From Acutalibacter sp. 1XD8-36 (GTDB lineage: Bacteria; Bacillota; Clostridia; Oscillospirales; Acutalibacteraceae), in the NCBI RefSeq assembly GCF_009917525.1, contig NZ_QZDU01000006.1, positions 1-64,000 on the forward strand: DNA of 64,000 nucleotides, in the 5' to 3' direction. Positions 46,166-62,262 of this stretch are shown here, piece after piece. The notes under the pieces are model-generated. The model saw nothing but the letters and a program-made list of their open reading frames with translations, was not told the origin of the DNA and did no database searches. Every line of letters begins with the position of its first letter. Position 1 is the first letter of the stretch. The translations under genes were made by a program, and so were the position numbers.

Positions 46166-46360
46166 ATGGCAGATAAATTTGAGCCCTGCGGCCCGGACCC
46201 AACCCCGCTCCCGGCGGACCCGGTCCCGGCTATGGCATATGTGCCCTACCAGCAGTGGAGCAGCAACCTGCACAGTGCCGAGCGGGCGCTGGACAGCGGC
46301 ACCCTTTTCCCCGTGCTGGATAAGCCCTTCTACGGCAGGAGAGGGGGCGAGCCCCGGTGA
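46166..46360 (+). CDS. cotJA: Spore coat associated protein CotJA
   Basis: The 64-residue protein contains MAYVPYQQWSSNLHSAERALDSGTLFPVLDKPF, the CotJA signature. In Bacillus the cotJABC operon is sigma-E dependent and its products enter the inner spore coat. GAGGAG upstream supports the ATG at 46166. It overlaps cotJB by 4 bases. A sigma-E promoter was not clearly recognised. Confidence 0.92.
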   Translation: MADKFEPCGPDPTPLPADPVPAMAYVPYQQWSSNLHSAERALDSGTLFPVLDKPFYGRRGGEPR

Positions 46361-46617
46361 ACGACAACCAGAGAGAGGCCATGAAGCGGAGGCTAAGCGC
46401 CATGCGGTTCGCCTGCTGGGAGCTGCACCTGTTTCTCGATACCCACCCCAACAACTGCGAGGCCGCCCGCCGCCTGGAAGAGTACCGCGGGCGGCTCGAG
46501 CAGCAGGTAAAGGAGTACGAGGAGGCCTTCGGGCCCTTAAACGAGCTCAGCAGCAAGACCAGCCGCTGGGACTGGATAAACGGTCCCTGGCCCTGGGAGA
46601 GGGAGGGTAACGAGTAA
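46357..46617 (+). CDS. cotJB: Spore coat protein CotJB
   Basis: The 86-residue protein matches CotJB: RFACWELHLFLDTHPNNCEAARRLEEYR and the C-terminal WDWINGPWPWE. The start is a GTG at 46357 overlapping the cotJA stop. Its stop codon overlaps the ATG of the cotJC remnant by 1 base, so the operon order is cotJA-cotJB-cotJC as in other spore formers. Confidence 0.92.
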   Translation: MNDNQREAMKRRLSAMRFACWELHLFLDTHPNNCEAARRLEEYRGRLEQQVKEYEEAFGPLNELSSKTSRWDWINGPWPWEREGNE

Positions 46618-46727
46618 TGTTTGTATACGAGAAGCGACTGCAGCACCCTGTGCGCATTAAAAATCCAAACCCAAAGCTGGCGAAGATAATTATGAGCCAG
46701 TATGGCGGGCCATCATGTATAATGTGA
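46617..46727 (+). pseudogene. cotJC: cotJC, 5' fragment only, interrupted at the prophage boundary
   Basis: The frame starts MFVYEKRLQHPVRIKNPNPK and continues to SQYGGP, matching the first 32 residues of CotJC (manganese catalase-like spore coat protein, about 190 residues). It then leaves the family sequence and stops four codons later. The match breaks off abruptly, without internal frameshift or decay. The DNA to the right contains phage genes up to the window end. The simplest reading is insertion of the prophage into codons around QYGGP. The 3' part should lie at the far prophage end, outside the window. Confidence 0.88.
46698..46716. other. Probable prophage attachment junction (attL) inside cotJC
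   Basis: Homology to cotJC ends within AGCCAGTATGGCGGGCC. The exact core cannot be fixed without the right junction. Large serine recombinases need only a 2-bp identical core, so no long repeat is expected. Confidence 0.6.
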
Positions 46728-46761
46728 TATAAGCCAATAAACAACAGAAAGGGATGGGCTT

Positions 46762-47076
46762 ATGTCAATACAAAACGGAAAAGATTTCAAATGGGTCTAC
46801 GAGCGTTACCTGGCGTGGTTCCACCAAAACGCCAAGCCGACGGCTGCTCCGAAAGATGAAGAAGGGCTGCTGCGCTTCTCTCTATGCCAAGAGAATGTGT
46901 TCGAGCAGGACGTTGTCTTCCTGAATCAGCTGTTCTTCGCCGTGCCGCTGCTGCCCTCTGAGAGCCTTACGGGACAGTTTCGGTTGTTTGTGTTTTCCGA
47001 AATGAACCTAATGAAGAAAATTCCTGAAATTGATGACTTTGATGTTATCACACCGGTCGAGTACGCGGTGATTTAA
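46762..47076 (+). CDS. Small protein of unknown function at the prophage left end
   Basis: I recognise no family in this 104-residue protein, which starts MSIQNGKDFKWVYERYLAWFH. It is probably a soluble alpha/beta protein. AAAGGGATGG upstream, a possible -10 (TATAAT at about 46717-46722) and a terminator at 47086 make it a self-contained unit. It is the first gene inside the attachment junction and opposite in strand to the phage late genes, a position typical of lysogenic accessory genes. Confidence 0.65.
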   Translation: MSIQNGKDFKWVYERYLAWFHQNAKPTAAPKDEEGLLRFSLCQENVFEQDVVFLNQLFFAVPLLPSESLTGQFRLFVFSEMNLMKKIPEIDDFDVITPVEYAVI

Positions 47077-47085
47077 GTAAAGACA

Positions 47086-47129
47086 AAAGCCCCCGGCTCA
47101 TCCAAACAAAGGGAAAGACCGGGGGCTTT
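47086..47129 (+). terminator. Terminator after the left-end accessory gene
   Basis: AAAGCCCCCGG and CCGGGGGCTTT form an 11-bp stem with a 22-base loop. It can work in both directions. The following 47130-47342 stretch has a 16-bp palindrome (AGAGCTTATAAGCTCT at 47227-47242) and no gene that I can support. Confidence 0.75.
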
Positions 47130-47342
47130 CATATTCCGTTATAACTTATTCACCGCTCTCCAGACGATAATCGTGCCTTTCGTCTCAGACTTTGTAGGCC
47201 CCACCAAAAAAGAGCCTGGCGAGCCAAGAGCTTATAAGCTCTACACCGACAATTACGATGGCCGGCGGTGTTTGTTCCGGCTTGCCCATTGGAGCTTCTG
47301 ATGGACAAGTACTCCGAGCCCATGCAGTATTCTGGAAATTAC

Positions 47343-47375
47343 TCAAAATTAAAAAGGCGGCTGAGTTCAGCCGCC
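47343..47375 (-). terminator. Terminator after the DUF3800 gene
   Basis: GGCGGCTGA and TCAGCCGCC (9-bp stem, 2-base loop, 47356-47375) are followed on the minus strand by TTTTTAATTTT. It is correctly placed to end the DUF3800 message. Confidence 0.85.
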
Positions 47376-47474
47376 CCATCTGAACTGACGTACTCACCAG
47401 TACGCTTAATACAAAGTATCAGTTATCAGACGTATACAGTGCATTTCTGCCTGTAATCATAGTATACACAGCTT

Positions 47475-48179
47475 TCAAGGAAATGTCAAGGCCAAATGAT
47501 TGGAAATAGCTCTCAACTTAATATTATTTGTGCGATACGATGTCCAAATACGATTTGCCAATATATCACTTGCTTGAATCAAATAATTACTTTTCGATTC
47601 ACAATATAATATATCAACTGAAACCTCGCTAGAGAACACATTTGGATGGAATGTTCCATAATCCCAATTAGAAATCCCATAAACCAATTCTTCCAAAATA
47701 GAATCGCGCAAATTGTAGTATCCATTTGTAGCTGTTAACTGCTCATCAATATTTATATGCAGTCGGACATTCTCCGTTGGATATAGTAATCCCCTTCTTA
47801 TCATATCTTGCAACTTGCTTTTAATACCCCGCTTCAAAACATAATCCTTATAACGACATATAGCACGCTTATCTGATAGAATACTCTCATAAACTCTACT
47901 GATGTCTACAGCTAGTGAAACAGTTTCACAATTCTGTAATGGAGTAAACAAAGCCCTTTTGTGTTTGAACGACAGACCTGCTGCCTTTAATTCCCCTTTT
48001 CTATTTGTAGAGAGCCGGATTTGCCTATTTGCATGGATATATTTCCTCTTTGCATCCTCAAGGTCTTGACGAGATAAAAATACATATCCTGCATAAACAA
48101 AAAATCCGCTAGGCTCGTTCCTGTGCAAAACGCCTGAGTCATCGAAGAAAAAATAAATATCTCTTATGATATTGTCCAC
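47475..48179 (-). CDS. DUF3800 domain protein (accessory gene of the prophage)
   Basis: The 234-residue protein has an early IYFFFDDSGVLH, a mid-protein LHINIDEQ and the late IQASDILANRIW. These match the acidic and Asp-containing motifs of DUF3800, a family related to the RNase H fold. DUF3800 proteins are frequent in phages and near defence genes, and their biochemical role is largely unsettled. The gene is much more AT-rich than its neighbours and sits between the late-operon terminator and its own terminator, so it is probably expressed from the lysogen. Confidence 0.8.
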   Translation of the reverse strand: MDNIIRDIYFFFDDSGVLHRNEPSGFFVYAGYVFLSRQDLEDAKRKYIHANRQIRLSTNRKGELKAAGLSFKHKRALFTPLQNCETVSLAVDISRVYESILSDKRAICRYKDYVLKRGIKSKLQDMIRRGLLYPTENVRLHINIDEQLTATNGYYNLRDSILEELVYGISNWDYGTFHPNVFSSEVSVDILYCESKSNYLIQASDILANRIWTSYRTNNIKLRAISNHLALTFP

Positions 48180-48297
48180 CCTATTTCGCCAATTTTTTAA
48201 ATTATAGCACAGAGCTACCTACATTGCAACAAATATTCTCCTTTTAGGCAATGATGCAAGCACTACCCACTTCAAAACTGGCATAGCCTGGAAAACC

Positions 48298-48355
48298 AAA
48301 AAGAAAAGCCCCCAGCCCTCCCAGCCGAAGCATCGGCCCGGGAAAGCCGGGGGCT
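48298..48355 (-). terminator. Terminator of the prophage late operon
   Basis: AGCCCCC and GGGGGCT enclose further GC pairing, and on the minus strand the stem is followed by TTTTCTTTTTGG. It lies directly after the holin gene and ends the late transcription unit. Confidence 0.8.
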
Positions 48356-48366
48356 CTCCTATGTCC

Positions 48367-48780
48367 TTACGTGCTCAGGGTCAAAGTACCCGCCCGCATC
48401 TTCTGATTGCGGACCTCCGCCTCAATCCTGCCCTCCAGATACCGCTCCAGGCTGCCATAAGCCGCCTCCAGATATTCAATAGCATCCTCTGTCAGCAGAG
48501 TCTTAGCTTTGGCAATAGCCACCTTCAGGGCCCACTCCTGACTCTCCTTTGTGAACCCGTCGGACTTCTTCAATGCGTCCACATAGGTCTGGCTGGTGTA
48601 GGTGACAGCGGTACTCACCGCGTCAGCCACAGCCTCCAGAAACCCTTTCGCCGTCTCGCTCTCGGACTTCTGGCCCAGGTAGCTGGCAATGGCCTTAATG
48701 CCCCTACCGGCAAAGGCCGCCAGCACCGGCACGGCGGCAATTAAAACAGCCTGCAAAAGCGTTGCTATAAATTCATTCAT
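48367..48780 (-). CDS. Phage holin, LLH family
   Basis: The 137-residue protein has one N-terminal membrane helix (residues 3-25, IATLLQAVLIAAVPVLAAFAG) and a long soluble helical tail with VADAVSTAVTYTSQTYVDALK and ALKVAIAKAKTLLTEDAIEYL. This matches LLH holins (phage_holin_6 type). It would permeabilise the membrane for the amidase encoded upstream in the same operon. Confidence 0.87.
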   Translation of the reverse strand: MNEFIATLLQAVLIAAVPVLAAFAGRGIKAIASYLGQKSESETAKGFLEAVADAVSTAVTYTSQTYVDALKKSDGFTKESQEWALKVAIAKAKTLLTEDAIEYLEAAYGSLERYLEGRIEAEVRNQKMRAGTLTLST

Positions 48781-48792
48781 GCTTGTAACCCC

Positions 48793-49101
48793 CTAAAATG
48801 TCTGGCTATTTTCATGGTTATATTCAAAATTGGCGGCTTTTGCACTTTCAAAGGTGATGCCGCCCTCTTTGTGGTCGGATTTCGCCATGTTGAGATAAAA
48901 CGAGCACACCACCCCATGAGCCGTCCAGGGCAGGCCCACCATCGCCGAAAGCCAGGGCAAAGAGCCCACATAGCCGTTATGTATGCAGTACGCCGCCAGC
49001 AGCAGGCCCCCGATTGTCACGGCCCACAGTAGCCAGCGGATGTCGGATATCAGCTTCTTTGAATAGCCGGGCCGTGGGCTGCCCTTCATATGCGCCGCCA
49101 T
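48793..49101 (-). CDS. Small two-helix membrane protein of the prophage lysis module
   Basis: The 102-residue protein has two membrane helices (around LLWAVTIGGLLLAAYCI and LPWLSAMVGLPWTAHGVVC) and a charged C-terminal tail. The ATG at 49101 overlaps the amidase stop by one base (TGATG) and GGGAGAAG precedes it. Its place between the amidase and holin genes suggests a second holin, an antiholin or a lysis regulator. No family was recognised. Confidence 0.7.
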   Translation of the reverse strand: MAAHMKGSPRPGYSKKLISDIRWLLWAVTIGGLLLAAYCIHNGYVGSLPWLSAMVGLPWTAHGVVCSFYLNMAKSDHKEGGITFESAKAANFEYNHENSQTF

Positions 49102-49979
49102 CACAGCTTCTCCCGGATGCGCTTGGCAAGGACAGCAGCCTTGCAGTCGCTTTTGGTGAGCCCCAGCCTGCCGTTTCCTGTGCCGGCGATGATACCCTTC
49201 TCCACCAGCTCCTTAATGTCAGCCCGCCAGTAGCTGGGCACCTCCTCCAGGGTGTTATAGGTGGGGTTTATACGGCTGTTCTCCTCCTGAATCACTTTCC
49301 TTGTCTGTTCCAGCGTCATGTCTTCACCCTCCGTATCATTTTTAAGTAATGCTGCCACATCTCTGCGGACAGAGCCCATATCCTTGCCGAACCTTGGTAG
49401 CCAGTGGAGCACATCAGCATGGTCCGACCCCATCCCAAGCCTGTAGCTGTCTTTATGGCAGAGAATAGTGGGCACAGAGATATTCCCTACCGTCACCTTC
49501 CCATTAGGGTCAATGCCATAAAGCTTACAGAGATAGGCTGTCAATTCACAGGCCTCCCTATAGGCTTTCTCAAAGTAGCCCCTATCGTCAAGCCCGTCCT
49601 CGCATATTTCAAACTGTATCCAGCCGTCGTTGCAGCTTCCGTTTCGGCCCTGATAGCACCCCCACGGAGCGTAGTCCCAGGGCATGGCCTGTACTGTAGT
49701 AACCGTGCCGTCCGCAAGCTTCCCTATCCAGGCGTTGAGCCCGGCCTCCATATAGATATGGTTCCAGTCGTTGCCGTTGGGATTCCTGCCCAGCAGGGAG
49801 ATTAGCCTCGCATAGTCCCTGTCGTTCCCGCTTGGCTGGACATACCGCCGAAGGTTGGGGTTATTCGCGCCGGTGCTGTGCCAGAGCACCCCCTTTACCC
49901 GCATTTTATATGTGTTCTTATAGCAGGTACTGTTGGTCTGTATACACACCAGGGGCTTATTTCTGTTGGAATACTTCAC
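49101..49979 (-). CDS. Prophage N-acetylmuramoyl-L-alanine amidase (endolysin)
   Basis: The 292-residue protein has an Amidase_2-type domain: VKGVLWHSTGANNP with the first zinc His, WIQFEICEDG with the catalytic Glu, and PTILCHKDSYRLGMGSDHADV with further zinc ligands. The C-terminal 75 residues resemble a wall-binding segment (YNTLEEVPSYWRADIKELVEKGIIAGTGNGRLGLT). It belongs to the prophage late operon and is distinct in sequence from the amidase at 42058. Confidence 0.92.
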   Translation of the reverse strand: MKYSNRNKPLVCIQTNSTCYKNTYKMRVKGVLWHSTGANNPNLRRYVQPSGNDRDYARLISLLGRNPNGNDWNHIYMEAGLNAWIGKLADGTVTTVQAMPWDYAPWGCYQGRNGSCNDGWIQFEICEDGLDDRGYFEKAYREACELTAYLCKLYGIDPNGKVTVGNISVPTILCHKDSYRLGMGSDHADVLHWLPRFGKDMGSVRRDVAALLKNDTEGEDMTLEQTRKVIQEENSRINPTYNTLEEVPSYWRADIKELVEKGIIAGTGNGRLGLTKSDCKAAVLAKRIREKL

Positions 49980-49981
49980 CT

Positions 49982-50386
49982 TTAGAGAGCTCCTTCCTGT
50001 AAAAAGTCGTGCTTCTTGAGCCGTTCCCTGTAGACCTCCCGGATGTTCTCAATAGCCAGCACGGCCCGGTTATTGGGATAGTCCGGGTGGTCTCTGCAGA
50101 AATCCTCGTAGGCGTCTATCTCTGTCAGCACCTCTATAAACTCCTCCTTGGTGTGGCCTATAGAGCGCAGGAGCTCGTTATTGAAGCGTAAAATTTCAAG
50201 CCGGTTGCTGTCCGCCAGCTGCTTCTCCACGCCGTACAGCTTGTCCAGCACCTCGCCGTTTATGGCCCTGCCTATCCACCGGGCTATGGCCGACCAGGGG
50301 TCCAGCTTAACGGGCGCGAGCTGGATGAATGTAAGCAGGAGTAAAAGGCCTCCGCCGGAATATGTTAGGATTTTGTCTAATGGCAT
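49982..50386 (-). CDS. Small phage membrane protein with its own start inside the tail gene frame
   Basis: The protein of 134 residues starts MPLDKILTYSGGGLLLLLTF. It has one N-terminal membrane helix and a helical tail ending KKHDFLQEGAL. A strong ribosome binding site (AAGGAGGT) lies 7 bases before this ATG, inside the upstream reading frame. In related phages I recall similar proteins encoded as stand-alone genes. Here no stop codon separates it from the preceding tail gene, so both a separate protein and a fusion may be made. Confidence 0.7.
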   Translation of the reverse strand: MPLDKILTYSGGGLLLLLTFIQLAPVKLDPWSAIARWIGRAINGEVLDKLYGVEKQLADSNRLEILRFNNELLRSIGHTKEEFIEVLTEIDAYEDFCRDHPDYPNNRAVLAIENIREVYRERLKKHDFLQEGAL

Positions 50387-51022
50387 CGCCTTACCTCCTT
50401 TTAACCTTGCCAGGAACTTAGCTCTGTTGGTTATTGTATGTGCTGCAGGCCACCTTAAAAAAAGCTTTGACCCACCTATTTGCTGTACATTGAAGAGAAA
50501 CTTTCCCCGAATGAACGGTCTGACAAAGGAGAAACGATAACTGTTCTCAATGGTCTCCGGGGACATAATGTAGGTAAAGTTATATAAAAGGTTCGAGGGA
50601 AGTACAATGTCTAACATTGTTCGGAGCTTCGGCAAAAGCTCCGGTTTCTCCCATTTTATCTTTATGCTCACCAAATAGCTGTTCCGGCTCAGAAAACAAT
50701 GGGCTGTATCCGGGCCATATAACGCATCCAGCATACGCTGCAGCGTGCGGTATGTATACGGCCTTTGCTCCATCATGCGGCTCAGCACCACTGCCCGCCG
50801 GTTTTCCAAACTTTCTTTTTTCGATGGAAAAATCTGTAGTAGCTTTTCAAATCGGGATATGCCGTATTCATCAGCGGTTGCTATAAATTCGTTTTTCAGC
50901 ACCCGATCCGTAGCATCCCACAAAAGGTTAAATTCTGGGTTTTCAGCGGTAAGCGTTTCCCTGATTTCTTTGTACTCTGCAACAAATGGGGGAAGATATG
51001 AAACAAGATCAACAGTTCTCAT
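49982..51022 (-). CDS. Tail protein (YmfQ/DUF2313-like) reading in frame into the small membrane protein
   Basis: The N-terminal 210 residues fit the YmfQ (XkdT-adjacent) tail family: DLVSYLPPFVAEYKEIRETLTAENPEF, then NEFIATADEYGISRFEKLLQI and ENRRAVVLSRM. This family completes the contractile-tail baseplate. The frame then runs through KFLARLKGG, encoded by the next gene's ribosome binding site, into MPLDKIL. The result is a 346-residue fusion. The tail fibre gene normally found after YmfQ is missing, which suggests a deletion that also removed the stop codon. It overlaps the baseplate J gene by 4 bases. Confidence 0.78.
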   Translation of the reverse strand: MRTVDLVSYLPPFVAEYKEIRETLTAENPEFNLLWDATDRVLKNEFIATADEYGISRFEKLLQIFPSKKESLENRRAVVLSRMMEQRPYTYRTLQRMLDALYGPDTAHCFLSRNSYLVSIKIKWEKPELLPKLRTMLDIVLPSNLLYNFTYIMSPETIENSYRFSFVRPFIRGKFLFNVQQIGGSKLFLRWPAAHTITNRAKFLARLKGGKAMPLDKILTYSGGGLLLLLTFIQLAPVKLDPWSAIARWIGRAINGEVLDKLYGVEKQLADSNRLEILRFNNELLRSIGHTKEEFIEVLTEIDAYEDFCRDHPDYPNNRAVLAIENIREVYRERLKKHDFLQEGAL

Positions 51023-52221
51023 GTTTCGCTCACACCTCCAAACACGGGAACTTGGAGTTTGTCAAGGGTTAAATTCTCAGTTAATCCGTTTAACTCTGTA
51101 TCCCGTATATCAACAATCCCTTTAATTGCAAGAATCCGGGTTTCAATTTGACTGATCCGCACAATTAAATAAGGGGAATCGCCCCATTGCCGTCTAAGCT
51201 CGGTAAAATAGTCAGATATGGCCGTGTCAATGGAGTTTTGCAAGTTAGCCCAGCCAAAACCCACATCAAATGTAATATTAGTTTTTACATCCACATTTAC
51301 GGGTGCTGCCCCCTCTACAGTTACCACATGGCCTATAGGGGCAAGCCCATACCCTTCTCCCGCGTTAATTTCGGGGTCAATGGCCGTTTGTACTGTTTGG
51401 ATCAAAGTTTCTGTAGGTACCCCGAACTCAGAATCAAGGATCGTCAGCTTGACCGTGCCGCCGGTTGTCAATTTCTTGGCTTCGCCCGCATGATACACGG
51501 AAGAAAGCCAAAATTGCACATCCGGGTTTACTTCTCCAATTATCCCTTCATACCACGTTGTAACAGCGCTTGAGGGGATCATATCGGCGGGGGCAATATC
51601 CCCATTCCATACCCGTGTAACCCTTGTGGCCCCCACACCGGGGATCGCGTTGGTCTTTTCCAGGTAGTCATGAACATTACCGCCGAAAGCTCTATCCCCA
51701 AAAGAATTGAAATACCTTTCGCGTAAATCTTCTGTATCTTCTTCATCTTCGCCGGGTATAAGCACTTCGACCAACTCAGCACTTATCAGGCCATCTACAT
51801 AATCAATAGGGATGATACTGCCCAAAAACTGATTGCCGCCTGTTCCCGATTCTTCACAGCGAACTTGATATTCACCATCGGCTATTTTCTCGGTAACTAC
51901 AAAATTTGCGGTTTCAAGGCTAAAGCGCTTGCCTACCACATCCACAGTGGCCGGGGTAAATACCCCTTTCAGCACAGCATAAGTAGCCGGGCGGGGAGCG
52001 ATTCCGCGCTCTTTGCAACGTAAAATAAGGAAGTCCCTGGACGCGGTATCTCCATAGGCTTCCTTAATAAGCGTGTCAAGCTCAAGATATAAAATTTGCA
52101 GCTCTATAGCTGTTGGTGAATGTGTGTCCCAAATTACCGATCCTTCCCGCTTATCCAGCTTATTGGATACACGGTCAAGCATCCGCTTGAGAATCACATC
52201 ATAAGTCATGCTCTCATACAT
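51019..52221 (-). CDS. Baseplate J-like protein (XkdT family)
   Basis: The 400-residue protein shows the baseplate J pattern: KLDKREGSVIWDTHSPTAIELQILYLEL at the N-terminus, ARDFLILRCKERGI-type segment, DTEDLRERYFNSFGDRAFGGNVHDYLEKTNAIPGVGATRVTRVW and a C-terminal DIRDTELNG. It forms the baseplate wedge of contractile tails. The gene appears intact, with more AT than the phage early genes. Confidence 0.93.
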   Translation of the reverse strand: MYESMTYDVILKRMLDRVSNKLDKREGSVIWDTHSPTAIELQILYLELDTLIKEAYGDTASRDFLILRCKERGIAPRPATYAVLKGVFTPATVDVVGKRFSLETANFVVTEKIADGEYQVRCEESGTGGNQFLGSIIPIDYVDGLISAELVEVLIPGEDEEDTEDLRERYFNSFGDRAFGGNVHDYLEKTNAIPGVGATRVTRVWNGDIAPADMIPSSAVTTWYEGIIGEVNPDVQFWLSSVYHAGEAKKLTTGGTVKLTILDSEFGVPTETLIQTVQTAIDPEINAGEGYGLAPIGHVVTVEGAAPVNVDVKTNITFDVGFGWANLQNSIDTAISDYFTELRRQWGDSPYLIVRISQIETRILAIKGIVDIRDTELNGLTENLTLDKLQVPVFGGVSET

Positions 52222-52638
52222 TTAGATTTCCACCTCTTTTTCAGCTTCAAAGCTGCCCAAATCCGTGTGAACGGTAAAGGTGGTGGAAAGCACCCCTCGC
52301 TTTGAAGTATCGAATTCAAAATCGGTAACCGCCGTAATACGGCTATCCTGTGTAAGCGCTTCCGTTACACGTCGTTCCAGCTCGGGGCATACATACGATA
52401 TCGCTTGACCGAAAAGGTCTTTCAGCTCTATCCCATAATTCCAGGAATAGATAATATAGCTGTATCTTTCAGTATTGAGAATTTTGTAAACGGCCTGTTT
52501 AATTGCTTCCAGGCCGTCAGTGTAGCCCTGTATCCTCTCTCCCGTGTAGAGGTTCATTTTATAGGTCTTGCTGGGCTGCTCGACAAATTCAACCGGCAGA
52601 CTTAGCAATGTGGCATTTCCCGGAATCATCCCAGCCAT
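52222..52638 (-). CDS. DUF2634 baseplate protein (XkdS-like, gp25-type)
   Basis: The 138-residue protein matches DUF2634: KTYKMNLYTGERIQGYTDGLEAIKQAVYKILNTERYSYIIYSWNYGIEL is characteristic, followed by ERRVTEALTQDSRI. It is a baseplate wedge component. It overlaps the DUF2577 gene by 13 bases. Confidence 0.92.
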   Translation of the reverse strand: MAGMIPGNATLLSLPVEFVEQPSKTYKMNLYTGERIQGYTDGLEAIKQAVYKILNTERYSYIIYSWNYGIELKDLFGQAISYVCPELERRVTEALTQDSRITAVTDFEFDTSKRGVLSTTFTVHTDLGSFEAEKEVEI

Positions 52639-53048
52639 TCCCCCTTTACAATGTGTTCGCTTATCCTATCCAGCACAAGAAAGCGCTGCCCCTCTTGAAA
52701 ACGTACTAGAATAACCTTTTCCCCTTTCAAAAGGCCGTTATACACTCTAATGCGCTTGCAACCCTTGTATTGGTGATTGTGGCTTTCATATTCGGCTGCG
52801 CCGCTGCCGCCGCCCCGGTTTTCTGTCACATGGTCTACCTCTATATCTACCCAATGATCGGTAACAGCTTTGGTAAATTCAAGCTGGGCCATACCCAATA
52901 CCAGCTTTTGATCTACTGTGATTTCAATGGGTGAAACTTTGGTAACTGTTCCATATAGCACCGCCGCCGGTTTACTGTTTTCTACAGCATTTAGGGCTAT
53001 ACGCTTCACCATATGGACAAACCCAGTATAGTTAGGCAATGAACTCAC
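52626..53048 (-). CDS. DUF2577 baseplate protein (XkdR-like)
   Basis: The 140-residue protein matches DUF2577: an N-terminal KPAAVLYGTVTKVSPIEITVDQKLVLGMAQLEF and GEKVILVRFQEGQRFLVLDRI. It is part of the baseplate hub region of PBSX-like tails. It appears intact and lies 3' of the XkdQ remnant. Confidence 0.9.
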   Translation of the reverse strand: MSSLPNYTGFVHMVKRIALNAVENSKPAAVLYGTVTKVSPIEITVDQKLVLGMAQLEFTKAVTDHWVDIEVDHVTENRGGGSGAAEYESHNHQYKGCKRIRVYNGLLKGEKVILVRFQEGQRFLVLDRISEHIVKGEWLG

Positions 53049-53400
53049 CCCCGCGCAAATTCAAATCCATAAAATGCTCACTTTCTTTGAAGGTATGCAC
53101 CACCTTTTCTACCAGCATAAATGTATTGGCAATGATATCCCCCAAGTCAAGAGAAACGGCCACAAGGGAACCGGCCCTTACCCTAGTATCTCCCAGTGCT
53201 TTTGTGATTTTGAGTTTCCGGGTTTTGCAATTATACAGGGAAAGAAGGGCATCCGCTTTAGCTGCGCCGTTTTCTCCCTCTTTGAGAGTGTCATAATACT
53301 GTAAAAGGCCCCACTTGTTTATATGGGAACTGTCTTTTGCTATGTACACTTCCCGCTTACCTGTTTTCTCATTATCATAGGTCAGTTTAGAGCGCCGTTT
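53032..53400 (-). pseudogene. XkdQ-like baseplate hub protein, C-terminal fragment
   Basis: The frame from about 53400 to 53032 encodes KLTYDNEKTGKREVYIAKDSS...KWGLLQYYDTLKEGE...LGDTRVRAGSLVAVSLDLGDI...LNLRGGEF, the C-terminal third of XkdQ-type hub proteins. The N-terminal two thirds are missing. Upstream of about 53400 the DNA is the tape measure gene in another frame, so there is no natural start. A deletion joined the two genes here. Confidence 0.8.
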
Positions 53401-55010
53401 AGAATAGCTTGCGCCGCCGCTGCAGCCAATGTAGCTACTTGATACGCTATGAAAGCCGCCGCAACTCCATATACTATCGGACTTATCCAGCTCCAATTAC
53501 CGGCTACAAAGTTTGCAAGCATCACAAGCAGATTAAAGGCTTGCAGCACAATATCTGCAACTGTGGTAATGGCCGCTATAGCGTTATCGGCGAACTGCTG
53601 AAAACGGTCACTGTTTGCCAGTTCGTTTAACTGTTCAAGCACTGGCTGGAAAGCCATAATGGCATTGTTTTGAATGGATGTGGCAATTTGCGCGAAAGTC
53701 TGGGGCATACTTTCAAACTGTGCGTTTGTTTCGTCTGCCGCCGCAAACATAGCGTTTTTCACGATATCTGCGGTAATCTGCCCTTCTGCGGCCAAATCTT
53801 TTAGCTGCCCCTTGGGTACATCAAGATAATCTGCAATAGACTGGATAATGTTGGGCGCTTGCTCCAAAATGCTGTTAAATTCCTCGCCCCTGAGAACGCC
53901 CGATCCCATAGCCTGAGAAAGCTGCAACATGGCCGCATCTATGCCCGCCGCTTCTGTACCGGCAATAGCAAATTTCTTGTTAATCTGCTCCATGAAAGCA
54001 ACTATTTCCTCAGAACTTCCAAAGGCATCCCCGGCCATAAGGCCCAGCTTAGAAACGGCATCGGCGGTTGCTTGGTAAGACCCCCTCGCCCTTTCAGCAG
54101 ACTGGAAAATCATGCCCTGTAGGTCTTTGGTGGTCTGTAAGCCATCATTCATCATATTAAGGCGGGCAGTAGTGGAAGTAAGTTGATCCGACAAACCCAA
54201 AGCCTTTGAAACTGTCTGTACAGAAGCATAGGCCGCCGCCATACTGCCAATCGTGCGCATGAGCGATCCGGCTTCTGTATTGCCTTGTGAAACTTTTTGA
54301 TTAAACTTTTCTTGTTCCCCGGTATTGTCCCTAATATAGCGCTCGGTGCCGCCAATCGTCTGAGAAAGCCGTAAATAGGCTTCATTGGCGCGGCTTACAT
54401 CCATATCGGCCACGGCATCATTAAGCGCTTCCTGAGCCGCCAGGGCTTGATTTAAGTGCCCTCTGAGCTGTTCCAATTCAGCGTTTGTTTCATCGGTGCC
54501 GATATCAACCGGGTTGCTTGTGATTTCATTGATCCGTGTCTGAATCGCGCCAATACGCCCTTGCATGGCTTGTAAATCCTGTAACGCATCCGGCGAGAAG
54601 ATGTTGCTTTTCGCCGCCTGGTTATTTATGCGGCTTTGCGTGGAGTAAAGCGAACCCAACATATTATTAGCGCTCTGAACCTCAGCTTCAAAGCGTTCTA
54701 TACCTGTATTTTGAAACACCGGCATGGTGTCTGTTTTCCAAGTTAAAGGAACTTCAACCGGGGGGATTTCTGGAACCGCCGGAGTGCTACCCCCCAGGTT
54801 GCTTAGTTCCTCATTAAAGCTTTGCGCGGCCATTTCGGCACGGGCTATGGAATCCCGCAAATTATCCATTGTATGGGTATCTATTTCATTGCCGCTGGCC
54901 CGCTGCATATCCTCAAATGCGGATACGGTTAGATTAAGCGCATTGACAATGGAAGTTAAGGGGCCTGTAAAGCCGTCATATAATTCTACCCCTGTCTGTA
55001 TACTAGCCAT
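53382..55010 (-). pseudogene. Tail tape measure protein, truncated at the C-terminus
   Basis: The 542-residue product starts MASIQTGVELYDGFTG and shows the tape measure domain (IGSMAAAYASVQTVSKALGLSDQLTST, QSAERARGSYQATADAVSKLGLMAGDAF, GVLRGEEFNSILEQAPN). A hydrophobic region follows, and the frame stops at AAQAILNGALN, exactly where intact relatives continue for hundreds of residues. Tape measure proteins set tail length. The stop arises from joining to the XkdQ remnant in a different frame. The ATG at 55010 is chosen over TTG at 55016 for its spacing to AGGGGG. Confidence 0.85.
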
Positions 55011-55012
55011 AC

Positions 55013-55632
55013 TCAATGCGCCCCCTTTTGCTTTGCCTCAAGTTTTTTGCGGTCTTTTTCTTCTTTCTCGATCCGCACTTTGATAGAAGCTATCACAAAT
55101 GCTTTTTCTTCATCGGTCATTTCCAAGAATACGCTTGGTAAAATGTGCAGCTTTTCCAAGCAGTAATGCGCATAGACGGATAGCGCATCGCCGCCCTCAA
55201 TTAGTTTTTTGCCTCGTCAACCTTATCTTCCAGGGAAGTTGTGAAGCCGTTGAACTTCTGGACAAAAGCGGCAAAATCGTCATATTCGCCGGGGTCGTCC
55301 ACCAAAGCGTAAAGAAGTTCTTCCGGGGTCATTACCCCATAGGAATCCTGCAAAGCGCTGTCGTACAGGTCAGGAGAAACGCAAGAGGCCACCAGCAGCT
55401 TTGCGATATATTCGCTGGTGCTGATCTTCTGGCGGTACATACCGTTCTTGCCCTTGATGGGGATTTCTTTCATGCAGCTTTCGCGGAGTTCGGTATTTTC
55501 CTTACTGGAAATGGGGCGCAACTCCCACAAAACCGGCTTCCCGTCCTTATCCACAATGGACTTCGTGGCCGCATAGGTTGTATTTTCCTTTACCTTTTTG
55601 TTGGCCTTCATGAACTGAGAGAAATTAGACAT
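55013..55632 (-). CDS. Tail assembly chaperone, -1 frameshift product (XkdN plus downstream frame)
   Basis: Slippage at A-AAA-AAC (55210-55204) would extend the XkdN-like protein past its TAA into the next frame, which reads LIEGGDALSVYAHYCLEKLHILPSVFLEMTDEEKAF and ends in a charged KKEAK-type tail at 55013. That C-terminal sequence has no start codon or ribosome binding site of its own and is typical of the frameshifted chaperone of PBSX-like and P2-like phages. The longer form binds the tape measure protein encoded next. Confidence 0.85.
55201..55632 (-). CDS. Tail assembly chaperone, short form (XkdN-like)
   Basis: The 143-residue protein starts MSNFSQFMKANKKVKENTTY and contains LWELRPISSKENTELRESCM and YIAKLLVASCVSPDLYDSALQDSYG. 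This matches the XkdN/phage tail assembly chaperone family. AAAGGAG nine bases upstream fixes the ATG at 55632. Its stop TAA follows directly after the slippery heptamer. Confidence 0.88.
   Translation of the reverse strand: MSNFSQFMKANKKVKENTTYAATKSIVDKDGKPVLWELRPISSKENTELRESCMKEIPIKGKNGMYRQKISTSEYIAKLLVASCVSPDLYDSALQDSYGVMTPEELLYALVDDPGEYDDFAAFVQKFNGFTTSLEDKVDEAKN
55204..55210 (-). other. Programmed -1 ribosomal frameshift site A-AAA-AAC
   Basis: The heptamer is in the correct register (GC A AAA AAC TAA), so both tRNAs can re-pair after slipping back one base. It sits immediately before the zero-frame stop. A stop directly after the heptamer tends to raise frameshifting. Confidence 0.85.
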
Positions 55633-55705
55633 AATAAAAAACTCCTTTAACTTAGATAAAATATGAAAGAATCCCCCGATTAGTCGGGGGATTCTCCCTT
55701 GTGCC

Positions 55706-55815
55706 TTAGCCCACCACAAAACCGGGCAAATCCAGGAACTTCTCAGGCATTTTGAAGTCCTCAAAGGTGAAGTCCATTTCTTCATCCAGGTATTCACCAT
55801 CCGCATCGAACTTGG
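55706..55815 (-). pseudogene. Tail tube protein (XkdM-like), C-terminal fragment
   Basis: The frame ends FDADGEYLDEEMDFTFEDFKMPEKF with a short hydrophobic finish, matching the last 35 residues of XkdM-type tail tube proteins. No start or N-terminal part precedes it; upstream DNA belongs to a capsid fragment in another frame. Confidence 0.72.
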
Positions 55816-56198
55816 CTAAACTCTTTCGCCGCCTTAGCGGGTACAGTGTTGCCCGTAGTAGCCATAGAGAATACACCCTTGAGAATCGCCAAAAGCATTG
55901 CCTGCTGGACTTCCACCTTGTATTCGCTGATCTGCTTGGCCACATTGTCCATGAAGTCAACGCCCGCCGTGATATTCTTGGAAAAGCTGCGCTCTGTCCA
56001 GGAATCCATACGGGAAGCGGTCACAAATCCACAGCTCTTTGTGTTTCCGCTTTTTAAGTTGCTCTGTGTTACAGTTACAAAATTCCCGCAATCGCACTTG
56101 CAAATCCACATAGACCCTGACTTTGCCTTTTTATCAGACCTCCTTATGACCGTTAGCCGACCAAAACGGCTTCCAGTCAAATCAATCATTTTTCCCAT
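55794..56198 (-). pseudogene. Chimeric remnant: zinc-ribbon DNA-binding N-terminus joined to a capsid protein fragment
   Basis: The first 57 codons encode MIDLTGSRFGRLTVIRR...WICKCDCGNFVTVTQSNLKSGNTKSCG, the N-terminal module found before AP2/HNH domains of phage homing endonucleases. At SCG the frame switches without a break to FVTASRMDSWTERSFSKNITAGVDFMDNVAKQISEY...LLAILKGVFSM, which resembles the middle of a phage major capsid protein. It then ends in unrelated residues. Two deletion junctions within 400 bp explain this. AAGGAGG before the ATG at 56198 means it could still be translated. Confidence 0.7.
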
Positions 56199-56439
56199 GA
56201 CATTCCTCCTTGAACTTGTCCATCAGTGCATCCGTCGCTTTTTCAAGTTCTGGTTTCGTATTGTGCAGAATGTTAGTAGCCACATAGAGCAGTTTGAGAA
56301 TTTGCTCCGCGTAGTGGGGGAGGAATTTGGAATCCTCTTTGGATTCAAAATACCGTTCCGCCTCTGCCAATACCGCACAAGATAGTTCGATTTGGTACTG
56401 CTGCTGTTCGATTTCAGCCATAATGTCGAATATGGACAT
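56182..56439 (-). CDS. Small helical phage protein of unknown function
   Basis: The 85-residue protein starts MSIFDIMAEIEQQQYQIELSCAV. It is acidic and mostly helical, and I recognise no family. GGGAGGGG lies just upstream. Its end overlaps the start of the chimeric remnant by 17 bases. Confidence 0.65.
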   Translation of the reverse strand: MSIFDIMAEIEQQQYQIELSCAVLAEAERYFESKEDSKFLPHYAEQILKLLYVATNILHNTKPELEKATDALMDKFKEECHGKND

Positions 56440-56541
56440 ATCTGCCCCTCCCAATTTACGCCAGAAAATGGCGTTTATTTTTTCTCTATATTACGCCATA
56501 ATAAGGCGTAAGTCAAGAGCTTTTTGTTAGGAGGTTCGAAA

Positions 56542-56817
56542 ATGTTCAACGACCGGCTTCGTGCAGCACGCATTTTCCGTGGATATACCCTCCAAAGAAC
56601 AGCAGATGCAGTAGGTGTTCCTCTTCGCTCATACCAGAAATACGAAAGCGCTGATAGTGAACCAGATTTTGAGATGCTTATAAAATTAGCAAATCTATTT
56701 GATGTTCCTACTGATTTTCTTTTGGGCCGAGATGATTATTTGAGGAAGCTCGAAGTATTCGTTGATGTACCCCCAGAAGGTCCTCCAAGGCATCCCAAAC
56801 CTCGAATGAACCGCTAA
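56542..56817 (+). CDS. XRE-family DNA-binding protein
   Basis: The 91-residue protein has a complete XRE helix-turn-helix (MFNDRLRAARIFRGYTLQRTADAVGVPLRSYQKYESADSEP) followed by LANLFDVPTDFLLGRDD, the usual repressor-like end. AGGAGG upstream fixes the ATG at 56542. It is on the strand opposite to the late and early phage genes and overlaps another XRE gene tail to tail. It may be an immunity or antirepressor component left from a second regulatory locus. Confidence 0.85.
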   Translation: MFNDRLRAARIFRGYTLQRTADAVGVPLRSYQKYESADSEPDFEMLIKLANLFDVPTDFLLGRDDYLRKLEVFVDVPPEGPPRHPKPRMNR

Positions 56818-56929
56818 CTTCCTCATATTCGATTTTCTGGTAGTGGCGCAGTGTTAGACCTAACTTTTCCGCCATCGCCTGCTGAGTTAGCCCAGCGGCC
56901 TTGCGGGCGTTTTTGAGATTTTCCCTCAT
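56708..56929 (-). CDS. Small XRE-family DNA-binding protein
   Basis: The 73-residue protein starts MRENLKNARKAAGLTQQAMAEKLGLTLRHYQKIE, a clear XRE helix-turn-helix, followed by SGSFEVWDALEDLLGVHQRILR, a short family-specific tail. It lies 3 bp after the helicase stop. Its last 110 bases overlap the convergent XRE gene, so both proteins are coded from the same DNA there. Probably a Cro-like regulator. Confidence 0.8.
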   Translation of the reverse strand: MRENLKNARKAAGLTQQAMAEKLGLTLRHYQKIEYEEVSGSFEVWDALEDLLGVHQRILRASSNNHLGPKENQ

Positions 56930-56932
56930 GGT

Positions 56933-58528
56933 CTACTCTCCTCTATATTCATATGGAGTAATTCCGTATGGAACTCTCCAACCATTTGCCGCTATGCGGT
57001 CAATCATTTGTCGGGCAGTTTCAAACTTCCATGTTCCTACATGACGAAAACCTTTGTTTTCCAAAAAACGTATCTGTTTTGGTGTTGTAAGCCCTTCCTG
57101 GCGGCGGGCATCCAGCCGGTCCAGCAGTTTTGCGGCCTTACCTGCGTTATCTATCTGGTCAGGGAAGATGCCGAGCTTTTCCAATGCTGCTATCTGTTTC
57201 TCAGAGGGCGGGGCCATTTCCCAGCCGAAGGACGGCACATAGCCTGCAAGGTCCTCGGCCTGAATGGACATTTCAAACTGCAGCGGGTCCACCAGCTTGC
57301 GCTTACGGTTGCGCATCTCCCTAAGCTGCTTGGCAAGGGCCTCCTCCCGCTGGGCCACAACGTCCTCACTGGCAGCTTTCTCAGCCTGCTCCAAATCAAT
57401 CGGCTCCCCAGCGTTCTCAATGTTCTCGGTCATCTTTCGGGCCACTTCCTCGTTCTCGCAAATAAGAGATGCAGGGTGGCAAAGCTCATGGCGCTCGGTG
57501 TGCCAGAGGAAGTCAAGCAGTAGAAGGTGGTCTTTGCCGGGGAAGAGCCGGGTCCCGCGCCCTACCATCTGGCTGTACAGCGAGCGCACCTTCGTGGGCC
57601 GCAGCACCACTACGCAGTCCACAGAGGGACAGTCCCAGCCTTCGGTGAGCAGCATGGAGTTGCACAGCACGTTGTACTTACCGCTGTCAAAGTCGGCCAG
57701 CACCTGGGCCCTGTCCTGGCTCTCGCCGTTGACCTCTGCCGCCCGGAAGCCTTTCTCGCAGAGGATATCCCGAAACTTCTGGGAGGTCTTCACCAGGGGT
57801 AGAAATACCACGGTTTTGCGGTCCCGGCAGTATTTGTCCATCTCTTCGGCAATCTGGTACAGATAGGGGCCCAGGGCGTCTCCCAGGTCGCCTGCTTTAA
57901 AATCCCCCGCGCTTAGCCCTACCCCGGACAAATCCAACTTGAGAGGCACGGTGAGGGCCTTGATAGGGCTGAGATAGCCCTCCCGGATTGCTTTGGGCAG
58001 AGTATACTCATAGGCCAGCGACTCAAAATAGCTGCCAAGATTACGCATATCCCCCCGGTCGGGAGTTGCGGTAACGCCCAGCACATTACTAGTCTCGAAG
58101 TACTGCAAGACCCGCTGGTAGCTGTCGGAGATGCAGTGATGGGCCTCGTCGATGATGATGGTGCCGAAATGCTCGGGGTCGAACTGGCTCAGCCGCTTCT
58201 CTCTCATCAGGGTCTGGACGGAGCCTACCGTCACCCGGTACCAGCTCTGGAGGCTGGTCTGCTCTGCTTTCTCCACCGCACAGCCCAGGCCGGTGGATTT
58301 TTTGATTTTGTCCGCTGCCTGGTCTAATAGCTCCCCCCGGTGGGCAAGAATAAGTACCCGCTGGCCGGCCTTTACGCAGTCTTCGGTGATTTTGGCGAAT
58401 ACGATGGTCTTGCCGCACCCCGTGGGCAGCACCAGCAGTGTGCGCCGGATGCCCTCCTCCCACTGGCTTTCCACGGCAGCACGGGCCTCTTGTTGATATG
58501 GACGCAGAGCAAGTATGCTCTTTTCCAT
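56933..58528 (-). CDS. DEAD/DEAH-box helicase (phage, SF2)
   Basis: The 531-residue helicase has motif Q/I RPYQQEARAAVESQW...LLVLPTGCGKTIVFAKI, motif II IIIDEAHH, motif III GVTATPDRGD, motif V CNSMLLTEGWDCPSVD and motif VI YSQMVGRGTRLFPGK. It is the type common in Clostridia and Bacillus phages next to DUF669 and Sak-type genes, where it serves DNA replication or recombination. Its start overlaps the DUF669 stop by one base. Confidence 0.92.
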   Translation of the reverse strand: MEKSILALRPYQQEARAAVESQWEEGIRRTLLVLPTGCGKTIVFAKITEDCVKAGQRVLILAHRGELLDQAADKIKKSTGLGCAVEKAEQTSLQSWYRVTVGSVQTLMREKRLSQFDPEHFGTIIIDEAHHCISDSYQRVLQYFETSNVLGVTATPDRGDMRNLGSYFESLAYEYTLPKAIREGYLSPIKALTVPLKLDLSGVGLSAGDFKAGDLGDALGPYLYQIAEEMDKYCRDRKTVVFLPLVKTSQKFRDILCEKGFRAAEVNGESQDRAQVLADFDSGKYNVLCNSMLLTEGWDCPSVDCVVVLRPTKVRSLYSQMVGRGTRLFPGKDHLLLLDFLWHTERHELCHPASLICENEEVARKMTENIENAGEPIDLEQAEKAASEDVVAQREEALAKQLREMRNRKRKLVDPLQFEMSIQAEDLAGYVPSFGWEMAPPSEKQIAALEKLGIFPDQIDNAGKAAKLLDRLDARRQEGLTTPKQIRFLENKGFRHVGTWKFETARQMIDRIAANGWRVPYGITPYEYRGE

Positions 58529-58992
58529 CAGAACTCACCCGCCTTAAATCCCTGGGCGGGTTTTTCCACAGGCTCATAAAACCGCTTGATTTCATTGCTC
58601 TGCTTCTTCTCGCCGTCCCGGTCGCTGACCCATTCCCGGATGCCCACCTTGCACCGGCCCTTTGAGCCGATAACCTTGCTCCAGTTCATGCGCAGCTTTT
58701 CACCGTGTTTGCGCTGGCCGATACTGCTGAAGAACGCACACAGCAGGCCCTCGCACTTACTGTGCAGGAACAGATTGTGCTTTATAGCCGCCTTCCCCTC
58801 AGGTGAGTCAATAGTGATGGAAAGCACCGCCTTGTTGCAGGGGGGAAGCTTAGCCCCGCCGGCATAGTGCTCCCGCTCAAAGTCTGTAACCGTAAAGTCG
58901 TAGTCGCCCGGAGGCAGAAGGACAAATTCCGGGCCATCGTTTTCAATAACGTCCTCCCAGTCCAGCTCTCTCTCGTGATTTACAAATTCCAT
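58528..58992 (-). CDS. DUF669 family phage protein
   Basis: The 154-residue protein starts MEFVNHERELDWEDVIENDG and continues FVLLPPGDYDFTVTDFERE, then LHSKCEGLLCAFFSSIGQRKHGE, matching DUF669. These proteins accompany phage single-strand annealing and helicase genes and are thought to bind single-stranded DNA. AAAGGAGG supports the ATG at 58992. Confidence 0.88.
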   Translation of the reverse strand: MEFVNHERELDWEDVIENDGPEFVLLPPGDYDFTVTDFEREHYAGGAKLPPCNKAVLSITIDSPEGKAAIKHNLFLHSKCEGLLCAFFSSIGQRKHGEKLRMNWSKVIGSKGRCKVGIREWVSDRDGEKKQSNEIKRFYEPVEKPAQGFKAGEF

Positions 58993-59013
58993 AGACAAGT
59001 CCTCCTTTCGCCG

Positions 59014-60087
59014 TTAAAACGGCAGGTCGCGGTTGTTCATAATTGTAGTGAATACCTTTTTCCAGGCCCCCACCAGCACTCCGCTGATAAATGCCGGGTC
59101 GTAGTTCTCAATGGGCGTGTCCTCGGGGTAGTACCCCTTCTGGCTGACTGCAAGGCGGATTTCCTGCTCCTCCACCTGGTTCTGTATCATCAGGTCGGTA
59201 AGGGCCTTTGGCAGATTGGGATTGACGTTAATAGTCAGCTGCTCTTGGGGAGCCAGGACGGGCTCAGCTGCCGCCGGGGCCGCTTTTGGGCTTTCCGCAG
59301 GGGGAGCAGCTTCCTCCACCGGCGGTGCAGCCGGAACAGCAGGCTCAGGCGTACCTGACGCAGCCCCGCCGCCTATGTAGATATAAGGGGCAATAGCACT
59401 GTAATCAAACTCCACCTCCTCAGGCAATCCCCAGCGGTTCTTGGCGTCCCAGCAGGGATGGTGGGCTGTGTACATGGTCCGCCGCCCGCCCTGGGCCTTG
59501 ACGGTCTTCTTGTCCTCCCCGGAGCGCACTGTCAGGATTTTGTAGTTGGCAAAGAGAAGAGCGTCCGACCATTCCTTCACCAGCGGGGCCACATTCTTGC
59601 TCATCTTCATCTCCCAGCGGTCATAGGCCCCGGTCTCCTCAGGCTGCTCGAATTTGCGCATTTTGGCGTGGGCGGTGCCCAACACGTTTATGCCCCGGTC
59701 TATAATCTCGTCCAGCAGGTTCAGAAGCTTGCCGAACTCTTCGGCAACATAGACATACCCTTTACCATACCCGAAATCCTCGACGCCTTTCTTCTGTGCT
59801 GTGTCACAGACGTGCTGTGTGCAAAGGGCCTCGGCCCAGTCCATGGTGTCTATGATAAGGGTCTTGCACACGCTAGGGGTGTCCCGGATATATCTCGCAT
59901 CTTCCAGCAGCATAGTCCAGCTTGAGGGCTTCGGGAGCCGTGCCACGTCCATATGTCGGGTGCTGCCCTCGGTGTCAATAAACACAGGCTCCGGGAATTT
60001 ACTGGCAAAGGTGCTCTTGCCGATACCCTCCGGGCCGTAGAGGACCACCTTCTGAGCCCCTGACTGTATGCCTCTCGTTATCTGCAT
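59014..60087 (-). CDS. Phage RecA-like ATPase (Sak4-type, AAA family)
   Basis: The 357-residue protein has Walker A VVLYGPEGIGKSTFASKF near residue 18, Walker B KTLIIDTMDWAE and a RecA-like core; FGYGKGYVYVAEEF and TAHAKMRKFE are typical. A Pro/Ala/Glu-rich linker (about 245-290) leads to a small C-terminal domain (LTDLMIQNQVEEQEIRLAVSQKGYYPEDTPIENYDPAFI). Sak4 proteins promote single-strand annealing in phage recombination. It lies 22 bp upstream of DUF669 and 1 bp from the next ATPase gene. Confidence 0.88.
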   Translation of the reverse strand: MQITRGIQSGAQKVVLYGPEGIGKSTFASKFPEPVFIDTEGSTRHMDVARLPKPSSWTMLLEDARYIRDTPSVCKTLIIDTMDWAEALCTQHVCDTAQKKGVEDFGYGKGYVYVAEEFGKLLNLLDEIIDRGINVLGTAHAKMRKFEQPEETGAYDRWEMKMSKNVAPLVKEWSDALLFANYKILTVRSGEDKKTVKAQGGRRTMYTAHHPCWDAKNRWGLPEEVEFDYSAIAPYIYIGGGAASGTPEPAVPAAPPVEEAAPPAESPKAAPAAAEPVLAPQEQLTINVNPNLPKALTDLMIQNQVEEQEIRLAVSQKGYYPEDTPIENYDPAFISGVLVGAWKKVFTTIMNNRDLPF

Positions 60088-61514: not shown

Positions 61515-61629
61515 GCTGTTAATTTCCTCCTTGTGTTTCCCGGAGGAATGTGATACACTAGATATAGCCCTCCGGGGTTGTGTTGGGCCTCTATACGCGG
61601 TGCTTGGTCGGCGGTTGCGAATAGGGCCT

Positions 61630-61851: not shown

Positions 61852-61854
61852 CTT

Positions 61855-62043: not shown

Positions 62044-62053
62044 TTGTCCCCTC

Positions 62054-62236: not shown

Positions 62237-62262
62237 ATGTATACTCTCCTTTCTATATCAGT

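Follow-up and report, generated by a model that had tools for sequence, protein, structure and literature searches.

The window, by which we mean the whole stretch of 64,000 nucleotides analysed here, corresponds to C62:1-64000, the first part of a 176 kb contig with which it shares its numbering; the source genome amounts to 3.2 Mb in 65 contigs and is 99.5% complete. The window contains the cotJ operon (Table 1), which is expressed in the mother cell in B. subtilis. As the preliminary description of this DNA had proposed, cotJA and cotJB are intact, judging from their matches to PF11007 and PF12652, and cotJC (46617-46727) matches its family, PF05067, only over model positions 1 to 32-33, the reading frame continuing as QYGGP-S-C-I-M-stop before it gives way to foreign DNA. 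The search of the whole genome with PF05067 (E up to 0.001) returned no full-length cotJC, and thus no intact second copy, but two partial matches on the plus strand, C62:46617-46715 (model positions 1-33, 28.7 bits) and C62:69899-70345 (model positions 29-191, 123.1 bits), against a gathering score of 27.

The remainder of the gene was anticipated on the plus strand where the phage DNA ends on its right side, and it is indeed there, 23.2 kb beyond the codon-32 break: the second piece starts at C62:69910 with HGEIG, right where QYGGP ended, and runs to QRFGE (codon 175). Compared with an intact congeneric CotJC, the first two pieces show identities of 87.5% (32 aa) and 86.8% (151 aa), and they fuse in frame without any indel, which argues that the break is not due to chance. 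The preliminary description was right about this cut. It missed the use of four sites among relatives, described below, and a second cut in this gene, neither of which the window shows: the gene is cut again after codon 175, and its last 23 codons are located farther along the contig. Joining the three pieces at the cores GGGCC and TTCGGCGAAG produces an uninterrupted open reading frame of 198 codons. At the level of sequence, cotJC is here a host gene in three pieces, interrupted by two elements that we call A and D. Solved relatives of CotJC include manganese catalases (1jku, E 2e-16), while the manganese catalase equivalog NF052557, with its cut-off of 350 bits, gives 103.6 bits with the intact CotJC of a congener (G009).

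Table 1. Features of the cotJ operon and of elements A and D; C62 positions above 64000 lie past the end of the window (LSR, large serine recombinase).
Feature	Position	Strand	Evidence or remark
cotJA, intact	46166..46360	+	PF11007, 60.4 bits
cotJB, intact	46357..46617	+	PF12652, 89.5 bits
cotJC piece 1, codons 1-32	46617..46711	+	PF05067; codon 32 completed by piece 2
Core GGGCC of element A	attL 46707..46711; attR C62:69905-69909	+	junction comparison
Element A	C62:46712-69909 (46712..64000 in window)		23198 bp
DUF3800-I RNA	47345..47461	-	Rfam RF02969, 88.9 bits
DUF3800 gene beside DUF3800-I RNA	47475-48179	-	PF12686
Phage holin and endolysin genes	48367..49979	-	PHROGs
Phage tail and baseplate genes, tape measure truncated	49982..55806	-	PHROGs
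Phage helicase, phrog_2698 ORF, Sak4-like annealing protein, phrog_1499 ORF	56933..61353	-	PHROGs
AbiD	C62:65779-66612	-	element A, beyond window
LSR A, 482 aa	C62:66797-68245	+	Pfam
HicA/HicB	C62:69273-69848	+	right end of element A
cotJC piece 2, to start of codon 176	C62:69910-70340	+	past window end
Core TTCGGCGAAG of element D	attL C62:70331-70340; attR C62:83150-83159		junction comparison
Element D	C62:70341-83159		12819 bp
LSR D, 512 aa	C62:71439-72977	-	Pfam
HsdS-HsdM-HsdR	C62:73317-79359	-	type I restriction system
Two ATPase-like ORFs	from C62:79678	+	first matches PADLOC PDC-S01; neither matches a PHROG
cotJC piece 3, remainder of codon 176 through codon 198, with stop	C62:83160-83230	+	past window end

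The gene had been described as running straight into phage DNA, which is nearly the case: element A opens with a 104-aa ORF that has no match in Pfam or PHROGs, followed by the DUF3800 gene, and its phage lysis and tail genes begin at 48.4 kb. The DUF3800-I RNA and the DUF3800 gene at this left end perhaps form a small cargo unit. The decay of the tail genes is borne out by a tape-measure ORF (544 aa) that spans only the N-terminal part of its PHROGs families and by the next tail ORF, of which only positions 226-340 of 654 are matched. Element A also codes for an antirepressor-like ORF and a CI-like repressor, and the PHROGs scan of 17 of its ORFs revealed no convincing head, portal or packaging gene, a terminase match (26 bits) on the Sak4-like ORF being disregarded. 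A recombinase had been predicted near the right boundary, and LSR A ends 1.7 kb before it; this distance to the att site is atypical when compared with most LSRs beside cotJC junctions and counts against the developmental excision considered below. Outside element A, to the left of cotJA, the interval 42058-46087 holds an amidase-like ORF, a terminase large subunit and a CI-like repressor, which we read as the leftover of another phage or as a phage-derived island adjoining the cotJ operon.

In element D, the recombinase gene and a junction are 1.1 kb apart. Cargo of the anti-phage or toxin-antitoxin kind is present in each element (L003:2780-3613, 6274-6849, 10318-17887), namely AbiD and HicAB in element A, and type I restriction and PDC-S01 in element D. 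The host may retain the elements for the sake of such cargo.

The same genome also has a split sigK, whose parts (C21:115296-114958 and C21:100984-100634) are on the minus strand, in order and about 14 kb apart, with an LSR adjoining the 3' part (element span C21:100634-115296, L229). A full-length sigma match on C65 was tried as sigK and rejected, as it corresponds to SigE (NF006158, 350.7 bits versus 339) and lies behind a SpoIIGA-like ORF that scores below its own cut-off; sigK proper is therefore the split pair on C21, and a skin-type rearrangement is to be expected in this organism on independent grounds. Examination by eye showed no clear sigma-E/K promoter upstream of LSR A or LSR D and a sigma-A-like promoter for the LSR of the sigK element; a box upstream of cotJA was dropped as a sigma-E promoter candidate, its spacing being unlike that of the consensus. 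According to the available parts of a study on C. difficile, the skin LSR of this species is made constitutively and the timing is set by a directionality factor (PMC5025042), so that constitutive production of an LSR does not speak against control by the mother cell.

Split cotJC genes recur among relatives. A sample of 29 genomes of the genus, including the source genome, was searched with PF05067 and sorted by tblastn with an intact CotJC: CotJC proper was found in 24, intact in nine and split in 15, of which two, G011 and G023, break off at the edge of a contig. Among the five genomes without it, four gave no match and one a paralogue only, and three of the five are at most 81% complete. 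The breaks define four sites, at codon 32 (A), codons 62-65 (B), codons 135-136 (C) and codon 175 (D), which are combined as A+D in the source genome, A+B in G003, B+D in G007 and G017, and C+D in G004. Five congeners (G007, G010, G025, G026 and G028; L004-L008) have a second, manganese-catalase-like paralogue that is uninterrupted over its CotJC-like part; it was rejected as a second cotJC, being a different protein with 32-38% identity to CotJC.

Within the family, 229 of the 300 genomes drawn have a PF05067 match. Sixty of these, selected because their best match was weak and their completeness good, were re-read, and a hand count gave at least two cotJC pieces in 45, with breaks at sites A, B and C, PF05067 being unable to show the tail beyond site D, which is too short for the model. 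One of the re-read genomes (G290) additionally has a near-full copy. In G134 (C23; L124-L126), four pieces follow one another in order on one contig and enclose three elements of about 4.0, 20.7 and 22.6 kb, every site having an LSR of its clade, and the single contig of G273 holds three pieces in order. A survey of named relatives, made with codons 62-136 as query and therefore liable to overlook splits within this stretch, kept 80 loci of at least 535; under a strict rule, 27 are split within a contig, five are unclear and 48 are intact, the last number being an upper bound because L145, counted as intact, is split at D. Examples are Anaeromassilibacillus sp. An250 (site B, one half with an LSR adjoining), Oscillibacter valericigenes An907 (site B, one half), bacterium MS4 'Amazonia massiliensis' (site C, one half) and an uncultured Lachnospiraceae bacterium (site A, both halves). 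Going by the titles of their records, the named relatives include many gut bacteria.

An unfiltered count placed 127 of 153 fragment ends inside intervals spanning 50 of 185 codons, in a set where loci were partly picked as split, named and unnamed loci overlap and some genes are counted twice. The notion that breaks occur at the four sites exclusively had to be rejected, as the other 26 ends lie outside these intervals, most of them within about ten codons of a site. Judging from these sequences, cotJC is a recurrent insertion target, with the same sites A-D also used in other genera.

The precision of the joins was examined in 39 genome/site pairs over 50-53 codons around each junction. Both pieces, a common core of 3-19 bases (the shortest of which could be chance) and an in-frame join were found in 35 of them, 34 besides the source genome; the failures comprise three pairs without a piece, one being site D of the source genome, which was joined separately, and site B of G007, which has no core. 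When full-length genes were assembled for 23 genomes, no stop appeared before codon 199; 21 of them end at codons 199-206, and those of G131 and L217 stay open as far as codon 215. Order and orientation are correct in 31 of 33 pairs located on one contig, with element lengths of 2.0-98.5 kb (median 9.9 kb), the exceptions being site A of G003, which is inverted, and site B of G007, which is out of order. A third exception, outside these 33, is site D of G004, with the tail at C187:9414 and the preceding piece at C187:28942.

On the single contig of G003 (C1; L033-L036), the first piece of cotJC is oriented against the others and the pieces are 45 to 92 kb apart. This arrangement is consistent with one inversion having a breakpoint inside element A, and the gene could still be restored if attL and attR, now inverted, recombined and thereby flipped the DNA between them. 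In G007 (C50; L048, L049 and L060), the pieces are on one strand in the order middle, tail, first, and in G004 (C187; L042 and L065) they are on one strand with the tail ahead of the preceding piece; we read both orders as rearrangement or misassembly. Since the pieces of these three pairs are inverted or out of order, a simple deletion would not rejoin them, and the third pair moves the odds slightly from excision towards plain disruption of the gene.

LSR genes adjoin all four kinds of cotJC junction, and their 3' end faces the att site in 58 of 64 entries, six differing and some genes being listed twice. After removal of four entries shorter than 330 aa and eight second copies (one gene, of G288, was entered twice), a maximum-likelihood tree of 52 LSRs (19 for A, 17 for B, nine for C and seven for D) grouped those of sites A, C and D into one clade each (SH-aLRT 99-100) and those of site B into two. 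The tree requires three changes of site label, the minimum for four labels, compared with a mean of 26.6 after shuffling, none of 200 shuffles being as low; it stems from a quick search with several long branches flagged, and its deep joins are unsure. This shows, as far as sequences can tell, that the LSR clades are site-specific within cotJC. The attB stretches themselves have only mildly lower entropy than random positions, 2865 of 100000 random quadruples being as low. In a rigid test for inverted repeats, the predicted attP of A is not significant (1364 of 2000 shuffles as good), which counts against the excision proposed below, and the arms of this attP were dropped as evidence of symmetry after that test, while the same test of the predicted attP of D gave 23 of 2000 and singled it out among the predicted att sites.

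Relatives of LSR A were collected from 81 loci, that is, the best 80 of 177 from viral contigs and one phage record. A cotJC half stands right behind the LSR, or behind HicAB in the source record, in 15 of the 81. Ten were called by a script, the LSR and the 3' half of cotJC being no more than 100 bases apart, and five by tblastn: L231 (the source genome's own), L236 and L252, together with L277 and L282, which have the 5' half in reverse. These halves argue that phages with such LSRs integrate into cotJC. The remaining script calls among the 81 are 16 loci that end at the LSR, 31 without a call (including the five found by tblastn) and 24 with an attP-like palindrome, the last being an upper bound obtained with a lax rule and no shuffle control, and including some that resemble terminators. 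Some viral contigs hence carry what looks like a free attP in sequence. The predicted attP of element A itself had no exact match in the viral contigs, which counts against excision. One IMG/VR record is identical to the source contig over 21.4 kb without a mismatch, possibly because it comes from the same assembly, and holds the right junction of element A in its unexcised form; it is probably the source genome's own prophage.

Over codons 66-134, the median dN/dS is 0.058 between split genes (31 usable pairs of 55), 0.094 between intact ones (27 of 36) and 0.089 between split and intact ones (69 of 99); many pairs approach saturation at synonymous sites, and low values by themselves would also be compatible with very recent insertion. 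Two pairs of sister species have elements in common, at dS values from 0.34 to 1.40. A 2.3 kb element at site A, 75% identical (dS 1.1-1.4), is common to G305 and G147, which are separate species within a single genus, with dN/dS of 0.155 for the LSR and 0.035 for cotJC; the congeners G082 and G200 share most of an element of 8.6-9.8 kb at 91-92% identity, with dN/dS of 0.13 for the LSR and 0.016 for cotJC. The 2.3 kb elements (L108 in G305 and L115 in G147) have hardly any cargo besides an intact LSR, since they hold only an Amidase_6 ORF and a 73-aa ORF. The Amidase_6 ORF, with weak PHROGs matches to families annotated as 'unknown function' and 'peptidase', may be a cargo cell-wall enzyme, and the 73-aa ORF, confined to G305 and G147 among the loci examined, was set aside as a directionality factor and is a candidate only. 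Elements A and D themselves yielded no named candidate for such a factor, which counts against excision. From these comparisons, the cotJC pieces and the recombinases look as if they had been kept after insertion, transfer of the element between species being the alternative.

In an alignment with solved manganese catalases, the four sites fall on, or only a few codons away from, E35 (A), E65/H68 (B), E136 (C) and H169 (D), residues that we take to be metal ligands. With breaks at these codons, unspliced pieces of CotJC would lack a complete metal site.

Taken together, these data make it probable that cotJC is rebuilt in the mother cell during sporulation through excision by the LSRs, the excision, its timing and the cell type being what we infer. 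Each element would have entered the coding sequence of cotJC through the action of its own LSR on a short attB there, the prophage A at codon 32 and the restriction-modification island D at codon 175. The same LSRs, probably with directionality factors coded by the elements, would then excise both elements in the mother cell by recombination of attL with attR, so that the three pieces would fuse in frame and complete cotJABC. This would allow the coat protein CotJC, a member of the manganese catalase family, to be made, while the chromosome of the spore would retain the elements and pass them on. We favour this proposal because the pieces are collinear on one strand, the genome has no full copy and the join gives a clean 198-codon frame; because the pieces of relatives can be joined in frame on paper, their LSR clades sort by site and the pieces are under selection; and because the 2.3 kb elements keep their LSR, sigK is split in the same genome and relatives of LSR A adjoin cotJC halves. 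The analogy with skin drawn in the preliminary description is likewise supported by the split sigK, the 34 further in-frame pairs and the selection on the pieces.

According to a rival explanation that we find unlikely, a dispensable coat gene was simply lost to cotJC-specific integrases, and its pieces are young pseudogenes without any developmental excision. Loss of cotJC might be cheap, and this counts against excision, in view of B. subtilis mutants lacking this coat protein, which have no apparent defect according to the available text of the source (PMC12122855). Plain disruption would fit with the three rearranged pairs on single contigs, with the five congeners devoid of CotJC, incomplete as three of them are, and with the fact that neither the search of viral contigs for the predicted attP nor the identical viral record yielded an excised junction. 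However, pseudogenes are difficult to reconcile with 23 full-length joins none of which meets a stop before codon 199, with purifying selection on both cotJC and LSR in sister-species elements at the dS values given above, and with minimal elements that retain their LSR. The possibility of an assembly or binning artefact can be given hardly any weight: halves do lie on different contigs in some relatives (such as G008, G010 and G017) and three same-contig pairs are rearranged, but the three pieces of the source genome are on one 176 kb contig that matches the IMG/VR record (possibly the same assembly), and the single-contig genomes G273, G082, G200, G305, G179 and G035 show ordered splits.

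It is also rather improbable, to a somewhat greater degree than plain disruption, that excision is real but takes place outside development, cotJC being restored in some cells at any time through prophage induction or through an LSR made constitutively. Selection on the pieces would then act in the cells concerned or reflect the ease with which elements are lost. The sigma-A-like promoter of the sigK LSR and the lack of a sporulation-type promoter call at LSR A and D point in this direction, as does the constitutive skin LSR of C. difficile; yet in the available parts of that same work the timing comes from the directionality factor and not from the LSR (PMC5025042). Easy loss is in turn at odds with the related elements found at the same site in sister species with dS of about 1, unless they were transferred between them.

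A wider and more tentative reading, which we consider possible and would not favour, is that in many genera of Clostridia cotJC serves as a docking gene that offers four ports. Each of five LSR lineages would be specialised on a single port, B being served by two of them, and the ports would lie at or near codons of the conserved manganese-binding motifs; parking there would be cheap for phages and defence islands since the mother cell excises the elements, and stacked elements would form a multi-key DNA lock, or AND gate. If so, a catalase gene with stacked elements would be expressed only after two or three independent recombinases had acted. One small gene is targeted by at least five recombinase lineages at four positions, with genes in two to four pieces in many genera, whereas the sporulation cases previously described, in the parts of the literature available, concern few genes at a time and one element per gene. 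The choice of terminal-cell genes by mobile elements, the stacked lock and the low-cost housing of defence islands become testable now. From a practical standpoint, such cotJC genes may pass as truncated in annotation, and they offer a resource of serine integrase families with defined attB sites.

Sporulation genes described as interrupted comprise sigK, spsM, spoVFB, spoVR, gerE and yabG in the available text of three articles (PMC4191935, PMC10747680, PMC5595907), and excision during sporulation is described there for spsM and yabG (PMC4191935, PMC10747680). In the titles, partial abstracts and passages available on cotJC or manganese catalase together with prophages, recombinases or intervening elements, no report of a split cotJC was found. 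A close parallel is skin in the sigK of B. subtilis and C. difficile, also a defective prophage in a mother-cell sporulation gene with an LSR near the junction; as with skin, the gene rejoins in frame, here on paper, and has no other copy, while the cotJC case differs by a coat protein gene as target, two elements and, across species, four alternative sites that are served by separate LSR clades, one or more per site. SPbeta in spsM, vfbin in spoVFB, vrin in spoVR and yin in yabG are likewise prophage-like elements in sporulation genes; as far as the text available goes, they come as one element per gene and cotJC is not listed among the targets (PMC4191935, PMC10747680). The case that comes nearest to a split cotJC in this literature is prophage phi027 of C. 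difficile R20291, which sits beside a CotJC homologue and, in the accessible passages, is described as adjacent and not as splitting or restoring the gene, by which description we set it apart (PMC11222575, PMC12122855).

Heterocyst elements of cyanobacteria, as presented in the part of the source available, are comparable in that they occupy genes of terminal cells, reach up to four elements per gene and have recombinase clades that match position (PMC4874684). They belong to another phylum and cell type, and the cotJC LSRs score far below the cut-off of the XisF model (NF041201, 375 bits), with 102.3 bits for LSR A and 157.7 for LSR D. The gin element in gerE of B. cereus ATCC10987 is an LSR element without phage genes, which element D and the 2.3 kb elements resemble; in contrast to its three LSRs in one element, according to the available text, one LSR was seen per cotJC element, with up to three elements per gene (PMC5595907). 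Element D further differs from gin by its type I restriction-modification genes. While the kind of arrangement is thus known from skin, SPbeta and gin, cotJC as target gene, the four dedicated sites and the stacking of elements are apparently new.
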